From Deltaproteobacteria bacterium (GTDB lineage Bacteria; Myxococcota_A; Polyangia; JAAYKL01): a stretch of DNA of 48,063 nt. The stretch is from the NCBI GenBank assembly GCA_030621515.1, contig JAUXHN010000007.1:1-48063 (forward strand), read 5' to 3'. The translations under genes were made by a program, and so were the position numbers. How positions within the stretch are numbered: position 1 is the stretch's first letter; every line of letters starts with the position of its first letter. A model generated the notes under the pieces. It saw only the letters and a program-made list of their open reading frames with translations. It did no database searches and was not told the origin of the DNA. This document shows, one piece after another, positions 15,142-21,957 of the stretch.

Positions 15142-15573
15142 TCAACCGGAAACCCAGCTCGCGTCCTTCAGCCAGGTCGCTATTTTCGGAACCACCGCCT
15201 TGGGGTCGTTAACGCCCGCCGCAATATCCATCACAAACGCGTAAGCAGCCTCCTCCTCGAAGGGATCGAACATCACCTTGTTCCACTGCAGGAAGGTCAC
15301 GGCGCAGGACAACCCGGTGCGCTTGTTGCCGTCCATGAAAACATGATCCTTGATGATGTAGAACATGTAGGCCGCCGCCTGATGGTAGATATCCGGGTAG
15401 ATCTTTTCCCCGAACACCGAGTTGTGGAAAATTTGATCCACGAACCCCAGCCCGACCCCTGGACGCAGATTGGTTTTGGATGCCAGCATGCCGGTGCCGG
15501 TGACCTCGAGACAGAGGCGGTTTATGACTACCACCATCTTCTTGTTGACGTACCTGAGCTTCGTCCCGGTCAT
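15142..15573 (-). CDS. doc: Doc/Fic-family toxin
   Basis: The protein has 143 residues with the death-on-curing Fic motif HVFMDGNKRTG (His77, Asp81, Asn83, Lys84, Arg85), matching the HxFx[D/N]xNK of Doc. Upstream helices contain FHNSVFGEKIYPDIYHQAAAY, typical of chromosomal Doc. Doc phosphorylates and inactivates EF-Tu, and is normally neutralised by the small antitoxin Phd. Here no Phd-like gene is found. Its ATG overlaps the stop of a zinc-ribbon gene (ATGA), which occupies the place of the antitoxin. The catalytic set is complete. Whether it acts as a toxin or as another Fic modifier is open. Confidence 0.9.
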   Translation of the reverse strand: MTGTKLRYVNKKMVVVINRLCLEVTGTGMLASKTNLRPGVGLGFVDQIFHNSVFGEKIYPDIYHQAAAYMFYIIKDHVFMDGNKRTGLSCAVTFLQWNKVMFDPFEEEAAYAFVMDIAAGVNDPKAVVPKIATWLKDASWVSG

Positions 15574-15950
15574 TTGCCCAGCCTCGTATACAGATTGAGA
15601 TTGGCCCTGAGGTTACTCTCGGCGAGCCGCAGGGCAGACATCTCACCACCATCCAGCCAGATCCCGCCGCAATCCGGGCACACATCCACCACCACGCCGC
15701 TCATGTCCACCGGCTCCATCGTCGCCCCCTCCACGGGGCAGAACAGATCCCGTGTACGGTCCTCGACCGAGATGGTGTCGATGTCCTCCTCGCCAAGATC
15801 GATCTCCCTGAAGATCTTGACCATCTTCACAATCGAACCCAGCTCTCCGTTATCGAGGAAGATGCCACAGCAGTCGCTGCAAATATCGACCTGCTCGTGA
15901 TGGTAGCTCACCTCCTGGAGCTCCACGGAGCAAAGTGGACAGTTTCTCAT
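15570..15950 (-). CDS. Double zf-TFIIB zinc-ribbon protein coupled to doc
   Basis: The protein has 126 residues and two zf-TFIIB-like knuckles. The first has CPLC (residues 4-7) and CSDCCGIFLD, with all four ligands. The second has CPVE followed by CPDCGGIWLD, so one Cys of its first pair is replaced by Glu. The ATG at 15950 begins directly with the first knuckle (MRNCPLC); a TTG at 15986 is possible but adds nothing recognisable. It follows the selenoprotein gene by 32 bases and overlaps doc by 4, so the three form one transcription unit. Function is unknown; a role as Doc partner is an inference from position. A paralogue with intact knuckles lies at 32601-32996. Confidence 0.85.
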   Translation of the reverse strand: MRNCPLCSVELQEVSYHHEQVDICSDCCGIFLDNGELGSIVKMVKIFREIDLGEEDIDTISVEDRTRDLFCPVEGATMEPVDMSGVVVDVCPDCGGIWLDGGEMSALRLAESNLRANLNLYTRLGK

Positions 15951-15982
15951 GATGTGATTTGTGTCGCGGGTGGAGGATCCTG

Positions 15983-16297
15983 TCAACAGCTACAGTCACC
16001 ACAGGCCGTCGCGCCCCTGTTGGCGGGCAGGATGACAAAACCGCCGCCACCCCACGGTTGGGACCTGAAATCGATATTGAATCCGCCATACTGGGAGACG
16101 ACCTCCTTGTCGGCAATTACCGTTATTCCGTCGCACTCCACCTTCTCGTCAGTATCTGAAGGCTCATCCAGAGCCATACCCCAGGAGGGCCCGCCTCACC
16201 CGTAGCCCGCAACGTAAATACGCACACATGGGATGTTGTCATTATCCTTCAGTGCGTCTTTCAACTCTCCTGCCGCTTTTTTTGTAACTTTTATCAT
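15983..16297 (-). CDS. HesB/IscA-like selenoprotein (in-frame TGA read as selenocysteine)
   Basis: Read from ATG 16297 the frame gives MIKVTKKAAGELKDAL, then VRIYVAGYG, a TGA at 16196-16198 (codon 34), then GGPSWGMALDEPSDTDEKVE. It ends with TACGDCSC at 15983. Both halves are the A-type iron-sulfur carrier fold (HesB/IscA, PF01521). The TGA replaces the first conserved Cys of the G-[CU]-G-G-P-S motif, and HesB-like selenoproteins are an established bacterial family. The hairpin at 16161-16175 fits a bacterial SECIS. The reading resumes in the same frame with full conservation, so a nonsense mutation or frameshift is unlikely. Length is 104 residues. The start has a GAGGA site about 9-10 bases away. 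Selenocysteine machinery is not in this window. It begins an operon with the zinc ribbon and doc. Confidence 0.87.
16161..16175 (-). promoter_or_regulatory. Bacterial SECIS-like hairpin
   Basis: On the mRNA strand GGCUC-UGGAU-GAGCC forms a 5-bp stem with a 5-base loop whose second base is G. The loop begins 25 bases after the UGA. Known bSECIS elements have the loop about 16-37 bases after UGA, with a G in the first two loop positions. Confidence 0.75.
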
Positions 16298-16436
16298 TTA
16301 TAAATTTCCTCGAGACCGAAGCCTCGCCTCCTTTCCAGGCAATATTTAATCACGATCCTGCATTGTGCACCCCCCAACTGCACTTTCTTCGAAATATCGT
16401 CATTGGGAGTCAATGGGCGAGAATCATTATAGCGTC

Positions 16437-16465: not shown

Positions 16466-16488
16466 GATCGTTGAAATGGAGGTGTGTC

Positions 16489-16722
16489 GTGGGAGCATTG
16501 ACTCAAAGAACAACCATATATTTGAAGCCGGAATTGTATAAGGCTCTACGCCTGAAGTCCGTCGAAACTTCCCAATCCGTATCAGAGATTGTCAATAATG
16601 CCGTTCGTCTGGCCCTCGCAGAGGATGCCGAAGATCTTGCTGCATTCGATGCACGTGAAAAAGAACCGGAAATCTCATTTGAGAAATTTATCAAGGATCT
16701 GAAATCTGATGGAAGAATATAA
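16489..16722 (+). CDS. Ribbon-helix-helix antitoxin
   Basis: The protein has 77 residues. The N-terminal strand RTTIYLKPELYKAL and the helices KSVETSQSVSEIVNNAVRLAL form a CopG-type ribbon-helix-helix. The acidic tail (EDAEDLAAFDAREKEPEISFEKFIKDL) would bind the toxin. The GTG at 16489 is chosen because GGAGG lies 7 bases upstream; an in-frame TTG at 16471 would overlap that site. The last 14 bases overlap the RelE-family toxin gene. Autoregulation through the upstream palindrome is likely. Confidence 0.9.
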   Translation: MGALTQRTTIYLKPELYKALRLKSVETSQSVSEIVNNAVRLALAEDAEDLAAFDAREKEPEISFEKFIKDLKSDGRI

Positions 16723-16966
16723 AATTGTCTTCAAGAATTCCGTCCAAAAAGACCTCTCAAAAATTCCCAAAAAAGACGTAAAAAGGATCATATCCACCAT
16801 CAAAACCCTGGCAAAAGATCCCAGACCCCTGGCCGCAAAAAAACTCTCTGCCCGTGAACGCTATAGAATTCGCCAGGGGAATTATAGAATTCTGTACTCG
16901 ATTGAAGATGCCAGACTTGTTGTCTGCGTCGTCAAGGTCGGACATCGACAAGATGTTTACCGATAA
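16709..16966 (+). CDS. RelE/ParE-family toxin
   Basis: The protein has 85 residues. It has the RelE fold signature: the N-terminal YKIVFKNSVQKDLSKIP, the basic stretch KKLSARERYRIRQGNYRILY, and the C-terminal VVKVGHRQDVYR. Arg-rich catalytic strands and a C-terminal His-Arg-x-x-Tyr fit ribosome-dependent mRNA interferases. It is translationally coupled with the RHH antitoxin by a 14-base overlap. It is full length and probably active. ParE-like gyrase toxins share the fold, but the motif pattern favours RelE. Confidence 0.92.
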   Translation: MEEYKIVFKNSVQKDLSKIPKKDVKRIISTIKTLAKDPRPLAAKKLSARERYRIRQGNYRILYSIEDARLVVCVVKVGHRQDVYR

Positions 16967-17499: not shown

Positions 17500-17724
17500 T
17501 CATTTTTCTTTGAGGGTCTCGAGGACCGGATCCAGGTGTGGTGGAAACTCTTCGTCAACGGGCAGGCTGCTCAGGGATCTGGTCATCATCCCAATCTTCT
17601 CCACGTGGCGTTTGCAGTCCGGGCAAAACAACAGGTGCAACCTGAACTGAACCCTGGTCATGAAGCCCAGGGCGCCTTCCCCAAAATCGGTAACGAGCCT
17701 CGATATGTCCCTGCAGCTGATCAT
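17500..17724 (-). CDS. Mini zinc-binding anti-sigma factor
   Basis: The protein has 74 residues. The HLLFCPDC motif (His-x3-Cys-x2-Cys) with an upstream helix is the core of the zinc-binding anti-sigma (ZAS) domain. There is no transmembrane segment, so it is a cytoplasmic anti-sigma and not a membrane-anchored one. Its ATG overlaps the stop of the sigma gene by 4 bases, a classical sigma/anti-sigma pair. It should sequester the ECF sigma factor and release it on a redox, zinc or ligand signal. Confidence 0.85.
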   Translation of the reverse strand: MISCRDISRLVTDFGEGALGFMTRVQFRLHLLFCPDCKRHVEKIGMMTRSLSSLPVDEEFPPHLDPVLETLKEK

Positions 17725-18413
17725 GTTTCGATCTCACTCTCGACTTTCTCCATGGCCCTTCTCAGCGCGGTTCGCCCCCTGTGCAGGAGAACCCGCTGGT
17801 TCGCCTCCGAGATCTGCAATAGCTCGCAAGTCTCGCCGGTGTCCAGGCCCTCCACGTCACGCATTGTCACCACAACTCTCTGGGATTCGGGCAAATCCTC
17901 GAGGAACCCGGCCAGCAACTCCAACCCTTCCCGGTTCATCGTTTGCTCCTGGGGATCCGAGTGGACCCAGCCGTGCACCGGGGAACGCCAGCGCCCCGCC
18001 GATGTGAACTCGTCCACGGGATCCCGGTCGGAACTCCGCGCGTCGTCGGTAAGGAGTTGTGAAAAAGGAATGGATCGAGCCTCCTTCTTGCCCACGCGGC
18101 GTGCGCGGTTCACCAGAATCCGATAAATCCAGTTTCGAAGGGAGGATTCCCGTCGGAAGTTCTTGATCTCCTTGAATACGGAGATCCAGGCCTCCTGCAC
18201 CACCTCGGCGGCCACCGTGTCGCTGCGTACCAGACCGCATGCAACTCGCTGCATGCTTCGCCAGTGCTTGCGTACTAGCCAATCGAAGGCCCCCTGATCG
18301 CCGTCCACGAGGGCATCCAGCAGCTCCGATTCCGACCGCTGCGCCCAGTTCCGTACAGCGCGTTCGCCCGCCTCGGTGGCGGCCCTCAGCACCATGAACA
18401 GAAGATGGATCAA
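17721..18413 (-). CDS. ECF-type sigma factor
   Basis: The protein has about 230 residues. Sigma region 2 shows FDWLVRKHWRSMQRVACGLV, AAEVVQEAWISVFKEI and RNWIYRILVNRARR. Region 4 shows LPESQRVVVTMRDVEGLDTGETCELLQIS and NQRVLLHRGRTALRRAM. The linker between the regions is long and Ser/Asp-rich. The start is taken as TTG 18413, which has AGGAGG 6 bases upstream; the ATG at 18395 is an alternative without a good site. The open frame upstream is not coding. It directs RNA polymerase to stress or envelope genes. It is coupled to the anti-sigma gene and diverges from the kinase-WD40 gene. Confidence 0.92.
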   Translation of the reverse strand: MIHLLFMVLRAATEAGERAVRNWAQRSESELLDALVDGDQGAFDWLVRKHWRSMQRVACGLVRSDTVAAEVVQEAWISVFKEIKNFRRESSLRNWIYRILVNRARRVGKKEARSIPFSQLLTDDARSSDRDPVDEFTSAGRWRSPVHGWVHSDPQEQTMNREGLELLAGFLEDLPESQRVVVTMRDVEGLDTGETCELLQISEANQRVLLHRGRTALRRAMEKVESEIET

Positions 18414-18554
18414 GCGGAGCCTCCTCGGTTTCGCGAGTTCCCCATGGTAACAGAAGGATCCCGCTTCGGCACCGCACAATCTACCTCCCTGGTTGACATT
18501 ACCGGGGCCAACCAGTTGTTGGGAGTCGTCGTGCGGCGAATTCGTTACGGGGAA

Positions 18555-18585
18555 TTGACATCGACAAGGCAATAATTCGTATAGT
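18555..18585 (+). promoter_or_regulatory. Candidate promoter of the kinase-WD40 gene
   Basis: A perfect TTGACA (18555-18560) and TATAGT (18580-18585) are separated by 19 bases, longer than optimal. They precede the GTG start at 18610 in the 196-base divergent region shared with the sigma factor gene. Confidence 0.4.
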
Positions 18586-18609
18586 ATTCGAGGACTGAGG
18601 AACAGCGGC

Positions 18610-21600
18610 GTGGCAGACGATAACAATAAAACAGATAGAGGTGGCAAATCGTTCGTCACCGCACCGACCATCTCACAGCTGCCGGAGACCGTTGTAGCCC
18701 GGTCGGACATCTCCGAGGCGGCGACTGTCGCCGCGAGCACAGCCGTGGGTGCTCCGGGCAGCGCCGATGTTGAGGTCACTGCCGAGGCGGCCGGCCGCTA
18801 CCTGATCAAGGGCGAGCACGGCCGCGGCGGACAGGCCCGAGTACTGGTGGCGCACGACCGTCACACCGGACGCGACATCGCCTGGAAGGAGCTGTTGCCC
18901 GAGTGGTTGCCAGGCGATGGTGTCGGCTCCACCGAGGCAGAGGGGTTTGCCCGCCGATTCCTGCGCGAGGCGCGCATCACGGCTCAGCTCGAGCATCCCA
19001 ACATCGTACCGGTACACGAGATCGGTCGTCGCGCTGACGATCGGCTCTACTACACGATGAAGCTCGTGCGGGGTAAGACACTGGCCCAGAAGCTCGAAGA
19101 CTGTCGTTCCCTCACAGATCGGCAAAAGCTGCTCGGACAGTTCTGGGATGTGTGCAACGCCGTGGCGTACGCCCACGACCGCGGAGTGATCCACAGGGAT
19201 CTCAAGCCCGGCAATATCATGGTAGGCGAGTTCGGCGAGACCGTGGTCCTCGACTGGGGGCTGGCCAAGGTCAAGGGGGTCGACGACATCCGCCGGACCG
19301 AACTCGAGCGCCGGATGCCGCAGGCCGACGATCCCACAGAGCGCATGATCACCGGTTCGAGCGACGCCACCATCGACGGATCGGCCCTGGGCACGCCCTG
19401 GTACATGAGCCCGGAACAGGCGCTCGGTCACGTCGACGAAATGGACGAGCGCTCCGACGTCTGGGGTCTGGGCGCCGTGCTCTACGAGCTGTTGACCGGC
19501 CACCCGCCGTTCGAGGGCAGTAACGTTGCCTCGATAATAAGCAAGGTGATCGTCGACAAGGTGCGTCCGGTGAACGAGGTGTTGCCCGATGCGCCGCCGG
19601 AACTGGTCGGCATCGCTCACAAGTGCCTCGAGCGCAAAAAAGCCCGACGCTACAGATCGGCTCGCGAACTGGCCGACGACGTATCGGCCTTCATGACCGG
19701 CGGTCGTGTGCAGGCCTACACCTACAGCTCATGGGAGTTGCTCAAACGATTTGCGGCTCGCAACAAGGCCGCCCTGGTTGCCGTAGCTGCGATCCTGACC
19801 GTGATCATCGCCGCGCTCGTCGTGGTCTCGTTGGCCTGGCGCGAGGAGGCCGACTCCCGTGTGCGCGAGCGTAACGCTCACCTGAATTCGGAGTTCAACC
19901 TGGCCCAGGCGCATGTGCAGCAGGCCGAGCGTCTTCTCGGCGACCAACAGTTCCTCGCAGCCCGGGTTCACGCCCTGGCATCGCTGCTACACAACCCCAC
20001 TCACGCCGGTAGCCTTGACCCCGACCCGACGTTCACGACGGATGAACAGGATCGGGATCGCCCGGGGATGGAGGCGCTGTCGGTGATTTACCGCACGGCC
20101 TATCGGCACGTCGGAGAGCTTGAGAGTACGCTGCGGACCCCGGACGCCGTACTGGACGCCAGGTTCTCTCCGGACGGCCGTCGCATCGCCGCCTGCGACT
20201 CCTCGGGCTGGCTCCTGGTCTGGAACGTCGCCGACGGAAGCGAGGTGTACCGGGAAAGGTCGCTCACGGACCGCAGCACTACCGTGGTTTTTTCCCCGGA
20301 TGGCACAACAATCGCGGTGGCCGGTAACGACAACGAGATCCACGTCCACGCAGCCGACACGGGACGCCCGCTGCGAACGATCCCCTGCGGCGAGAAAATC
20401 CAGCTCTTGGCATTCTCACCCGACGGTCGCCGGATCGCCGCAGGGTACCTGTCGGGCCGGATCACTTTATTCGACCTGGCGACCGGTGAAGCGGGCCTGA
20501 GCGTACTCGCGCACACCGACAAGATTCGCGGTCTCGAGTTTTCCCATGACGGTAAGCTGCTAGCCAGTGGCAGCTGGGACAAGACCGCGCGGATCATCGA
20601 CGCGGCCACCGGAGAGATCCGTTTCACTCTGGAGGATCCGGCCGACGGTGTCTACGGAGTTACGTTCTCGCCGGACGACAAGCGACTGGCGATCGCCTCC
20701 TTCGACGGGGCCGTGCGTCTGTGGAACGTGGCGACCGGCGAGCTGGTGGCGGCGATGGAGGAAGGGCGAGACGGATTGATCACGCTTGCGTATTCCCCGG
20801 ACGGCAAACTGCTGCTCAGCGGCGGGATGGATCGCACTCTTCGGTTGTGGGACGTCGACAGCGGCACGCTGCTGCTCTCGATCGAGGGCCATCGCGATGC
20901 GATCCTGGCCGTGGGGTTCGCCGCCGACGGACGCCACATCGTTTCGGCTTCCCAGGACGGGACCGTTCGGCTGTGGAGCGTGCGGCCGACGGATGGTCTC
21001 GTACGGCTGGACCACCCGAATGGAGTCTACTCGGCGGCCTGGTCGCCCGACGGGCGATTGATCGCCACGGGCGGTTGGGACAAGACTGCTCGCATCTGGG
21101 GCGCCGCTTCCGGCGAGCTGCGACACGTCCTCGCCGGACACCTCGATGGTGTCACCGGGAGCGCGTTCTCACCGGACAGCAAGCTGCTGGCAACTGGCAG
21201 CCACGACAGCATTGTTCGGTTGTGGGACGCGCGGTCCGGCGCAGCGCTGCACGTCCTCGAGGGCCATACGGCGCCGGTGATAGAGGTCTCCTTTTCGCCT
21301 GATGGTAAGACACTCGCCAGCTCCTCCCAAGATCGTCAACCCCGCCTGTGGGATGTCAAAAGCGGCAAGCTGATTGCTCAGCTGCCGGATCATGGAGGTT
21401 TCTCGTACGGCCTTGAGTACTCACCCGACGGCAAGTGGCTGGTAACCTCGAGCTTTGACCGTAAACTACGCGTTTTCGACAGCGCGTCACACCAGCTGAC
21501 GCAAACACTCGAAGGGCACGATGACTGGGCCTCGGACGTGGCATTTTCCGCCAACGGGCGTTACATGTTGAGCACGAGCAAGGACCGGACGTGTATCATC

Positions 21601-21957
21601 TGGGAGGTCGGCACCTGGAAGCAATTGCAGCGACTCGAGGGCCACAAGCAGTGGGTCAACCGCGGCGAGTTCACCCCGGGAGGCGAGATGGTCGTGTCCG
21701 GTGGGGACGACGGGATCACCTTTGTCTGGGACGTGGAAACCGGGAAGACGTTGCTCAAGATCGTGACCAGTCACGCTGTGCAAGACCTGGCAGTGTCCCC
21801 GAACGGCAAGGCGGTCGTGCTGGGATATCCAGGCTCCGCCACGGTCTTTCCGCTGACCCTGCCATCCATCGAGGGCACAGTCAGTGACCTGCTCCACGAG
21901 GCTGAGGTCGCTGCCGGTGGGAAGCTCGAAGGCTTCGTGCTGGTCGTGTCCGACTAG
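18610..21957 (+). CDS. Ser/Thr protein kinase with extracytoplasmic WD40 double propeller
   Basis: The protein has 1115 residues. The PknB-type kinase domain spans about residues 64-365. It has a Gly-rich loop near 69-75, Lys93 in AWKE, the HRDLKPGN loop (195-202), a DWG motif (215-217) in place of DFG, and GTPWYMSPEQ. One transmembrane helix lies at about 388-409. A charged coiled region follows, then 14 WD40 repeats (about 510-1095), enough for two seven-bladed propellers. The kinase would be cytoplasmic and the propellers periplasmic, making a receptor-like sensor. DWG kinases with WD40 tails are known from myxobacteria and planctomycetes. The start is GTG with GAGGA about 8 bases upstream. 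Substrates may include the neighbouring sigma/anti-sigma pair, which is inference. Confidence 0.95.
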   Translation: MADDNNKTDRGGKSFVTAPTISQLPETVVARSDISEAATVAASTAVGAPGSADVEVTAEAAGRYLIKGEHGRGGQARVLVAHDRHTGRDIAWKELLPEWLPGDGVGSTEAEGFARRFLREARITAQLEHPNIVPVHEIGRRADDRLYYTMKLVRGKTLAQKLEDCRSLTDRQKLLGQFWDVCNAVAYAHDRGVIHRDLKPGNIMVGEFGETVVLDWGLAKVKGVDDIRRTELERRMPQADDPTERMITGSSDATIDGSALGTPWYMSPEQALGHVDEMDERSDVWGLGAVLYELLTGHPPFEGSNVASIISKVIVDKVRPVNEVLPDAPPELVGIAHKCLERKKARRYRSARELADDVSAFMTGGRVQAYTYSSWELLKRFAARNKAALVAVAAILTVIIAALVVVSLAWREEADSRVRERNAHLNSEFNLAQAHVQQAERLLGDQQFLAARVHALASLLHNPTHAGSLDPDPTFTTDEQDRDRPGMEALSVIYRTAYRHVGELESTLRTPDAVLDARFSPDGRRIAACDSSGWLLVWNVADGSEVYRERSLTDRSTTVVFSPDGTTIAVAGNDNEIHVHAADTGRPLRTIPCGEKIQLLAFSPDGRRIAAGYLSGRITLFDLATGEAGLSVLAHTDKIRGLEFSHDGKLLASGSWDKTARIIDAATGEIRFTLEDPADGVYGVTFSPDDKRLAIASFDGAVRLWNVATGELVAAMEEGRDGLITLAYSPDGKLLLSGGMDRTLRLWDVDSGTLLLSIEGHRDAILAVGFAADGRHIVSASQDGTVRLWSVRPTDGLVRLDHPNGVYSAAWSPDGRLIATGGWDKTARIWGAASGELRHVLAGHLDGVTGSAFSPDSKLLATGSHDSIVRLWDARSGAALHVLEGHTAPVIEVSFSPDGKTLASSSQDRQPRLWDVKSGKLIAQLPDHGGFSYGLEYSPDGKWLVTSSFDRKLRVFDSASHQLTQTLEGHDDWASDVAFSANGRYMLSTSKDRTCIIWEVGTWKQLQRLEGHKQWVNRGEFTPGGEMVVSGGDDGITFVWDVETGKTLLKIVTSHAVQDLAVSPNGKAVVLGYPGSATVFPLTLPSIEGTVSDLLHEAEVAAGGKLEGFVLVVSD

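Follow-up and report, generated by a model that had tools for sequence, protein, structure and literature searches.

Background

HesB-like selenoproteins have been established as a family for about 20 years, and the gene described here is not a new kind of gene. Eleven members were catalogued in 2006 (PMC1794560), and the family is listed with the motif UxGP in Table 1 of PMC13188914. According to PMC11097638, mutagenesis and 75Se labelling led to the identification of the Methanococcus maripaludis member (MMJJ_08070); that paper describes its function as not clear and states, citing unpublished work, that nitrogen fixation was not impaired in a disruption mutant. In the literature surveyed we found no member of the family whose product has a demonstrated function.

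A HesB/IscA-like gene with an in-frame TGA

The window analysed here, a stretch of 48,063 nucleotides from a Myxococcota draft genome, carries on its minus strand a predicted HesB/IscA-like selenoprotein gene (15983-16297) of 104 residues with selenocysteine (Sec) at position 34, as judged from the reading frame, profile matches and relatives. The coding frame runs from 16297 to 15986 and ends at a TGA stop (15985-15983). Exactly one internal TGA lies between the ATG at 16297 and this stop, with no indel; it is codon 34 (16196-16198, minus strand), the putative Sec codon, whose counterpart in IscA is the first cluster-binding Cys. The predicted read-through product is MIKVTKKAAGELKDALKDNDNIPCVRIYVAGYG-U-GGPSWGMALDEPSDTDEKVECDGITVIADKEVVSQYGGFNIDFRSQPWGGGGFVILPANRGATACGDCSC, in which UGGP (residues 34-37) fits the UxGP motif and the C-terminal tail CGDCSC (15986-16003, minus strand) lies in the region where IscA has its C-terminal Cys pair; tails of the form CGxCSC are common among the family loci. 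In IscA, that first Cys and the C-terminal pair bind metal or cluster. A candidate Shine-Dalgarno site, AGGAA, was read from the sequence at 16306-16310 (minus strand), 8 nt 5' of the ATG, and the ATG itself is conserved among the nearest relatives.

The first-pass annotation had proposed an overlooked selenoprotein whose frame is conserved on both sides of the TGA without an indel, the TGA standing at the first Cys of the family. Both points hold, as one HesB/IscA profile spans the two halves and its alignment pairs residue 34 with the first of the conserved Cys residues in IscA. It had also expected gene callers to report only a 64-residue C-terminal part starting at Met40; the table-11 list of open reading frames does contain this 64-residue part alone, but its ATG (16177) encodes Met41.

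Conservation of the TGA codon

We scanned a bacterial collection containing one genome per species with codon 34 masked (pattern P[SR][WLI]G[ML]ALDE). Among the best 80 loci, 78 have TGA at this codon (Sec-type loci) and two have Cys (one TGT, one TGC). These 80 are spread over Myxococcota, Desulfobacterota, Bacillota, Spirochaetota and other phyla, the labels being approximate since some metagenome-assembled genomes (MAGs) are named merely 'Deltaproteobacteria bacterium', and the relatives recovered by the scan include Tepidibacillus decaturensis and Acidaminobacter hydrogenoformans. Closer to the window genome, two genomes of the same genus encode proteins 91% and 89% identical to that of the window and keep the same TGA; the sister genomes show synonymous and nonsynonymous differences on both sides of it, with neither half disrupted. 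Four further relatives of the class (42–47% identical) have a single TGA at the same codon, and another, G008 (40% identical), has Cys at codon 34. Random stops at this position in close homologues had been named as evidence that would speak against a selenoprotein; the homologues instead carry TGA or Cys exactly there.

These data bear directly on whether the TGA is simply a nonsense mutation, leaving a pseudogene, or a sequencing or assembly error in an ordinary Cys-type HesB gene. A single base change would convert TGT or TGC to TGA, and the window comes from a fragmented draft assembly (346 contigs). However, the same TGA recurs in 78 of the 80 loci, across several phyla and independent assemblies as well as in the two sister genomes, and both gene halves are conserved without a frameshift. 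Its frequency among codon-masked loci excludes chance or sequencing error, and we assign mutation or error in the window gene almost no probability. The proposal that the cell makes just the 64 residues from Met41 onwards, for which the ATG at 16177 opens a frame that a gene caller would report, fares equally poorly and has a negligible chance of being correct: homologues keep the N-terminal half in frame, the nearest of them with its ATG; Met41 is replaced by Leu in 20 of the 78 Sec-type loci, so this start is not a general one; and such a fragment would be without the initial strands and the site of the Cys or Sec.

A conserved SECIS hairpin

Published limits for bacterial SECIS elements are a loop of 3–9 nt, a stem of 4–16 bp, a G in the first two loop positions, 16–37 nt from the UGA to the loop and an energy of at most -7.5 kcal/mol (PMC13188914). 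The candidate element at 16161-16175 (minus strand), comprising the stem GGCUC (16175-16171), the loop UGGAU (16170-16166) and the stem GAGCC (16165-16161), begins 20 nt 3' of the UGA and falls within all of them (5-nt loop, 5-bp stem, G at loop position 2, loop beginning 25 nt 3' of the UGA, -8.8 kcal/mol). When the first 40 nt of seven Sec-type sequences were folded, six gave this hairpin at minimum energy, and G007 gave it with a four-pair stem.

The SECIS-like hairpin reported in the first-pass annotation is thus present, and its codons are conserved in 78/78 Sec-type loci, but the window sequence taken by itself is not unusual. The 61 nt that follow the UGA showed no excess stability in RNAfold (z = +0.33), and a SECIS-like hairpin of -7.5 kcal/mol or below arose in 9.8% of synonymous recodings. 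An Rfam search of the window returned no match. Since the hairpin alone does not exceed chance expectation by fold stability or recoding, it was dropped as proof in its own right and its conservation was used as evidence instead. The Ala-Leu-Asp-Glu codons read GCT-CTG-GAY-GAG in all 78 Sec-type loci, from several phyla, while the Gly codon two before that Ala varies freely (GGC 44, GGA 19, GGT 11, GGG 4), as do Ser codons near the hairpin. Elsewhere in the same genes GCT accounts for 56 of 377 Ala codons, and in three long genes of the window for 13%. Selection on the RNA at synonymous sites is the simplest explanation for this invariance, which is what a bacterial SECIS calls for. A second pairing, CCC...GGG, was noted 3' of the UGA but ahead of the SECIS hairpin (16178-16190, minus strand); 67 of the 78 Sec-type loci use CCC for the Pro there, a preference that may represent a further RNA constraint.

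The two Cys-type relatives from the scan lie at L166:2974-3228 and L165:4001-4309. The hairpin has been lost in L165 (GCG TTG GAT GAA). L166 keeps a SECIS-like hairpin after its TGC, likely reflecting a recent change from Sec to Cys, and in this it resembles the Cys-type HesB-like protein with a remnant SECIS described in PMC1794560.

Selenocysteine machinery and decoding of the UGA

The window genome (4.64 Mb, about 96% complete) was searched for the Sec machinery using family models. It encodes a tRNA-Sec with anticodon UCA (64.1 bits), a full-length SelB (645 aa, 344.9 bits over the whole frame) and a SelD above cut-off (384 bits), while SelA is represented by its first 89 profile positions only, at the very end of a contig. 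Absence of selB, selC or selD had been put forward as a reason to abandon the selenoprotein interpretation; all three are in the genome, together with the partial selA. An intact selA is found in G002, of the same genus, and selA was not found in G001 (86% complete). SelD (L027:1450-2430, contig C127) is a selenoprotein in its own right, its gene carrying UGA in frame within GSGUASKL. Both tRNA-Sec and SelB exceed cut-off in each of the six other Sec-type genomes checked (G001, G002, G007, G038, G064, G069). In the Cys-type G008, which is 88% complete, none of tRNA-Sec, SelB, SelD and SelA was found above cut-off, a joint absence that is strong but not absolute.

While UGA reassignment occurs in other bacteria, and codon 34 might be read as a different residue by a Trp or Cys suppressor or under a changed genetic code, UGA alternates with Cys and not with Trp in the homologues, and the gene has an invariant hairpin and its genome the Sec machinery. 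Moreover, the gene itself ends at TGA, beyond which the sequence in frame is not conserved, so UGA also serves as a stop. We consider decoding as another residue very unlikely. The pseudogene, C-terminal-fragment and changed-code readings were accordingly all rejected.

Decoding of codon 34 as Sec is strongly supported by these comparisons, and the gene almost certainly encodes a HesB-like selenoprotein with an IscA-like fold, as the first-pass annotation had held and as the conserved TGA, the conserved hairpin and the machinery in the genome bear out. We propose that SelB and Sec-tRNA(UCA) would read the codon-34 UGA as selenocysteine during translation, recruited by the hairpin that starts 20 nt downstream within the coding sequence. 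Sec34 would then take the place of the first metal- or cluster-binding Cys in the IscA-like fold, and the CGDCSC tail may supply further thiols. By inference, the product is an A-type carrier-like protein that most likely binds or carries an Fe-S cluster, or a related redox or metal site, to which Sec would contribute as ligand or redox residue.

Family assignment and structure

The best model was NF038090 (IscA_HesB_Se), which aligns residues 1-104 with model positions 1-101 (E 4e-21, 75.2 bits), followed by TIGR01911 (HesB_rel_seleno; E 9e-16, 58.2 bits). Both scores fall slightly short of the curated cut-offs (85 and 66.35 bits respectively), so the gene could be missed or truncated in annotation, and the NCBI automatic rule would not name the protein despite its matching features. 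Scores against the IscA, SufA and ErpA equivalog models were far lower relative to their cut-offs (TIGR02011, 23.9 of 150.6 bits; TIGR01997, 31.7 of 136.2; NF010147, 39.2 of 117). An AlphaFold model (mean pLDDT 79.7, with the last five residues unreliable) has IscA/SufA structures as its best PDB matches (1x0g, 1r94, 2d2a and 1nwb are among the PDB entries with the same fold). A tree places the protein in a small, well-supported clade with two Myxococcota MAGs.

Genomes in which the Sec form may be the sole A-type protein

In a loose first look at these draft genomes with TIGR00049 (E up to 0.01), the window genome, both of its genus mates, G007, G064 and G069 yielded no A-type (IscA/ErpA/SufA-like) protein besides the selenoprotein, and G003, G006 and G009, which belong to the same family as the window genome, yielded none at all; G038 has another A-type protein. 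This suggests that the Sec form is the sole A-type protein of some lineages. It is conceivable, though rather unlikely, that a Sec-bearing scaffold or carrier, as the sole A-type protein here, took over a step of Fe-S delivery otherwise performed by Cys-only proteins, in which case Fe-S assembly in the window lineage would depend on selenium.

Gene neighbourhood

No neighbour is common to the whole family over the 80 loci. The window gene has neighbours in common with its genus alone (glutamine synthetase III). Upstream in 21 of the 80 loci, none from the window lineage, is an RdgB/HAM1-type pyrophosphatase. This RdgB/HAM1-like nucleoside triphosphate pyrophosphatase, named from its sequence, occurs immediately 5' of the HesB-like selenoprotein gene at many loci of Desulfobacterota type (e.g. 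L151:3108-3815). In the window, a divergent ParD/ParE-like toxin-antitoxin pair adjoins hesB (16471-16966, plus strand; a weak RHH match, then PF05016 ParE), and 3' of hesB are a protein with two TFIIB-type zinc ribbons (PF13453) and then a Fic/Doc-like protein (PF02661; together 15142-15986, minus strand). Further away, a 1115-aa fusion of a protein kinase with about ten WD40 repeats (18610-21957, plus strand) is divergent from a sigma-70 family factor (17721-18779, minus strand).

Implications and comparison with known systems

Standard annotation would cut this gene short; recognition of the read-through frame puts that right and brings a Myxococcota lineage into the family of HesB-like selenoproteins. 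The SECIS sequence, being nearly invariant, offers a simple DNA signature for further members (TGA, 20 nt, then GGCTCTGGAYGAG), and genomes in which the HesB-like selenoprotein is the only A-type protein detected would be good places to test the function of the family.

The protein shares its fold with IscA, SufA and ErpA, and position 34 aligns with the Cys of their GC.G motif; however, it differs from them in having Sec for that Cys, GGP after it and a CGDCSC tail rather than CGCG, and the identity in structural alignment is about 19–33%. It is like the HesB-like selenoproteins in its fold, in Sec at UxGP, in a SECIS directly downstream and in the co-occurrence of Sec machinery, although it scores below the curated cut-offs and falls in its own clade with the two Myxococcota MAGs. 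M. maripaludis MMJJ_08070 is placed in the same family by name, and this archaeal gene uses an archaeal SECIS, not a hairpin directly after the UGA.
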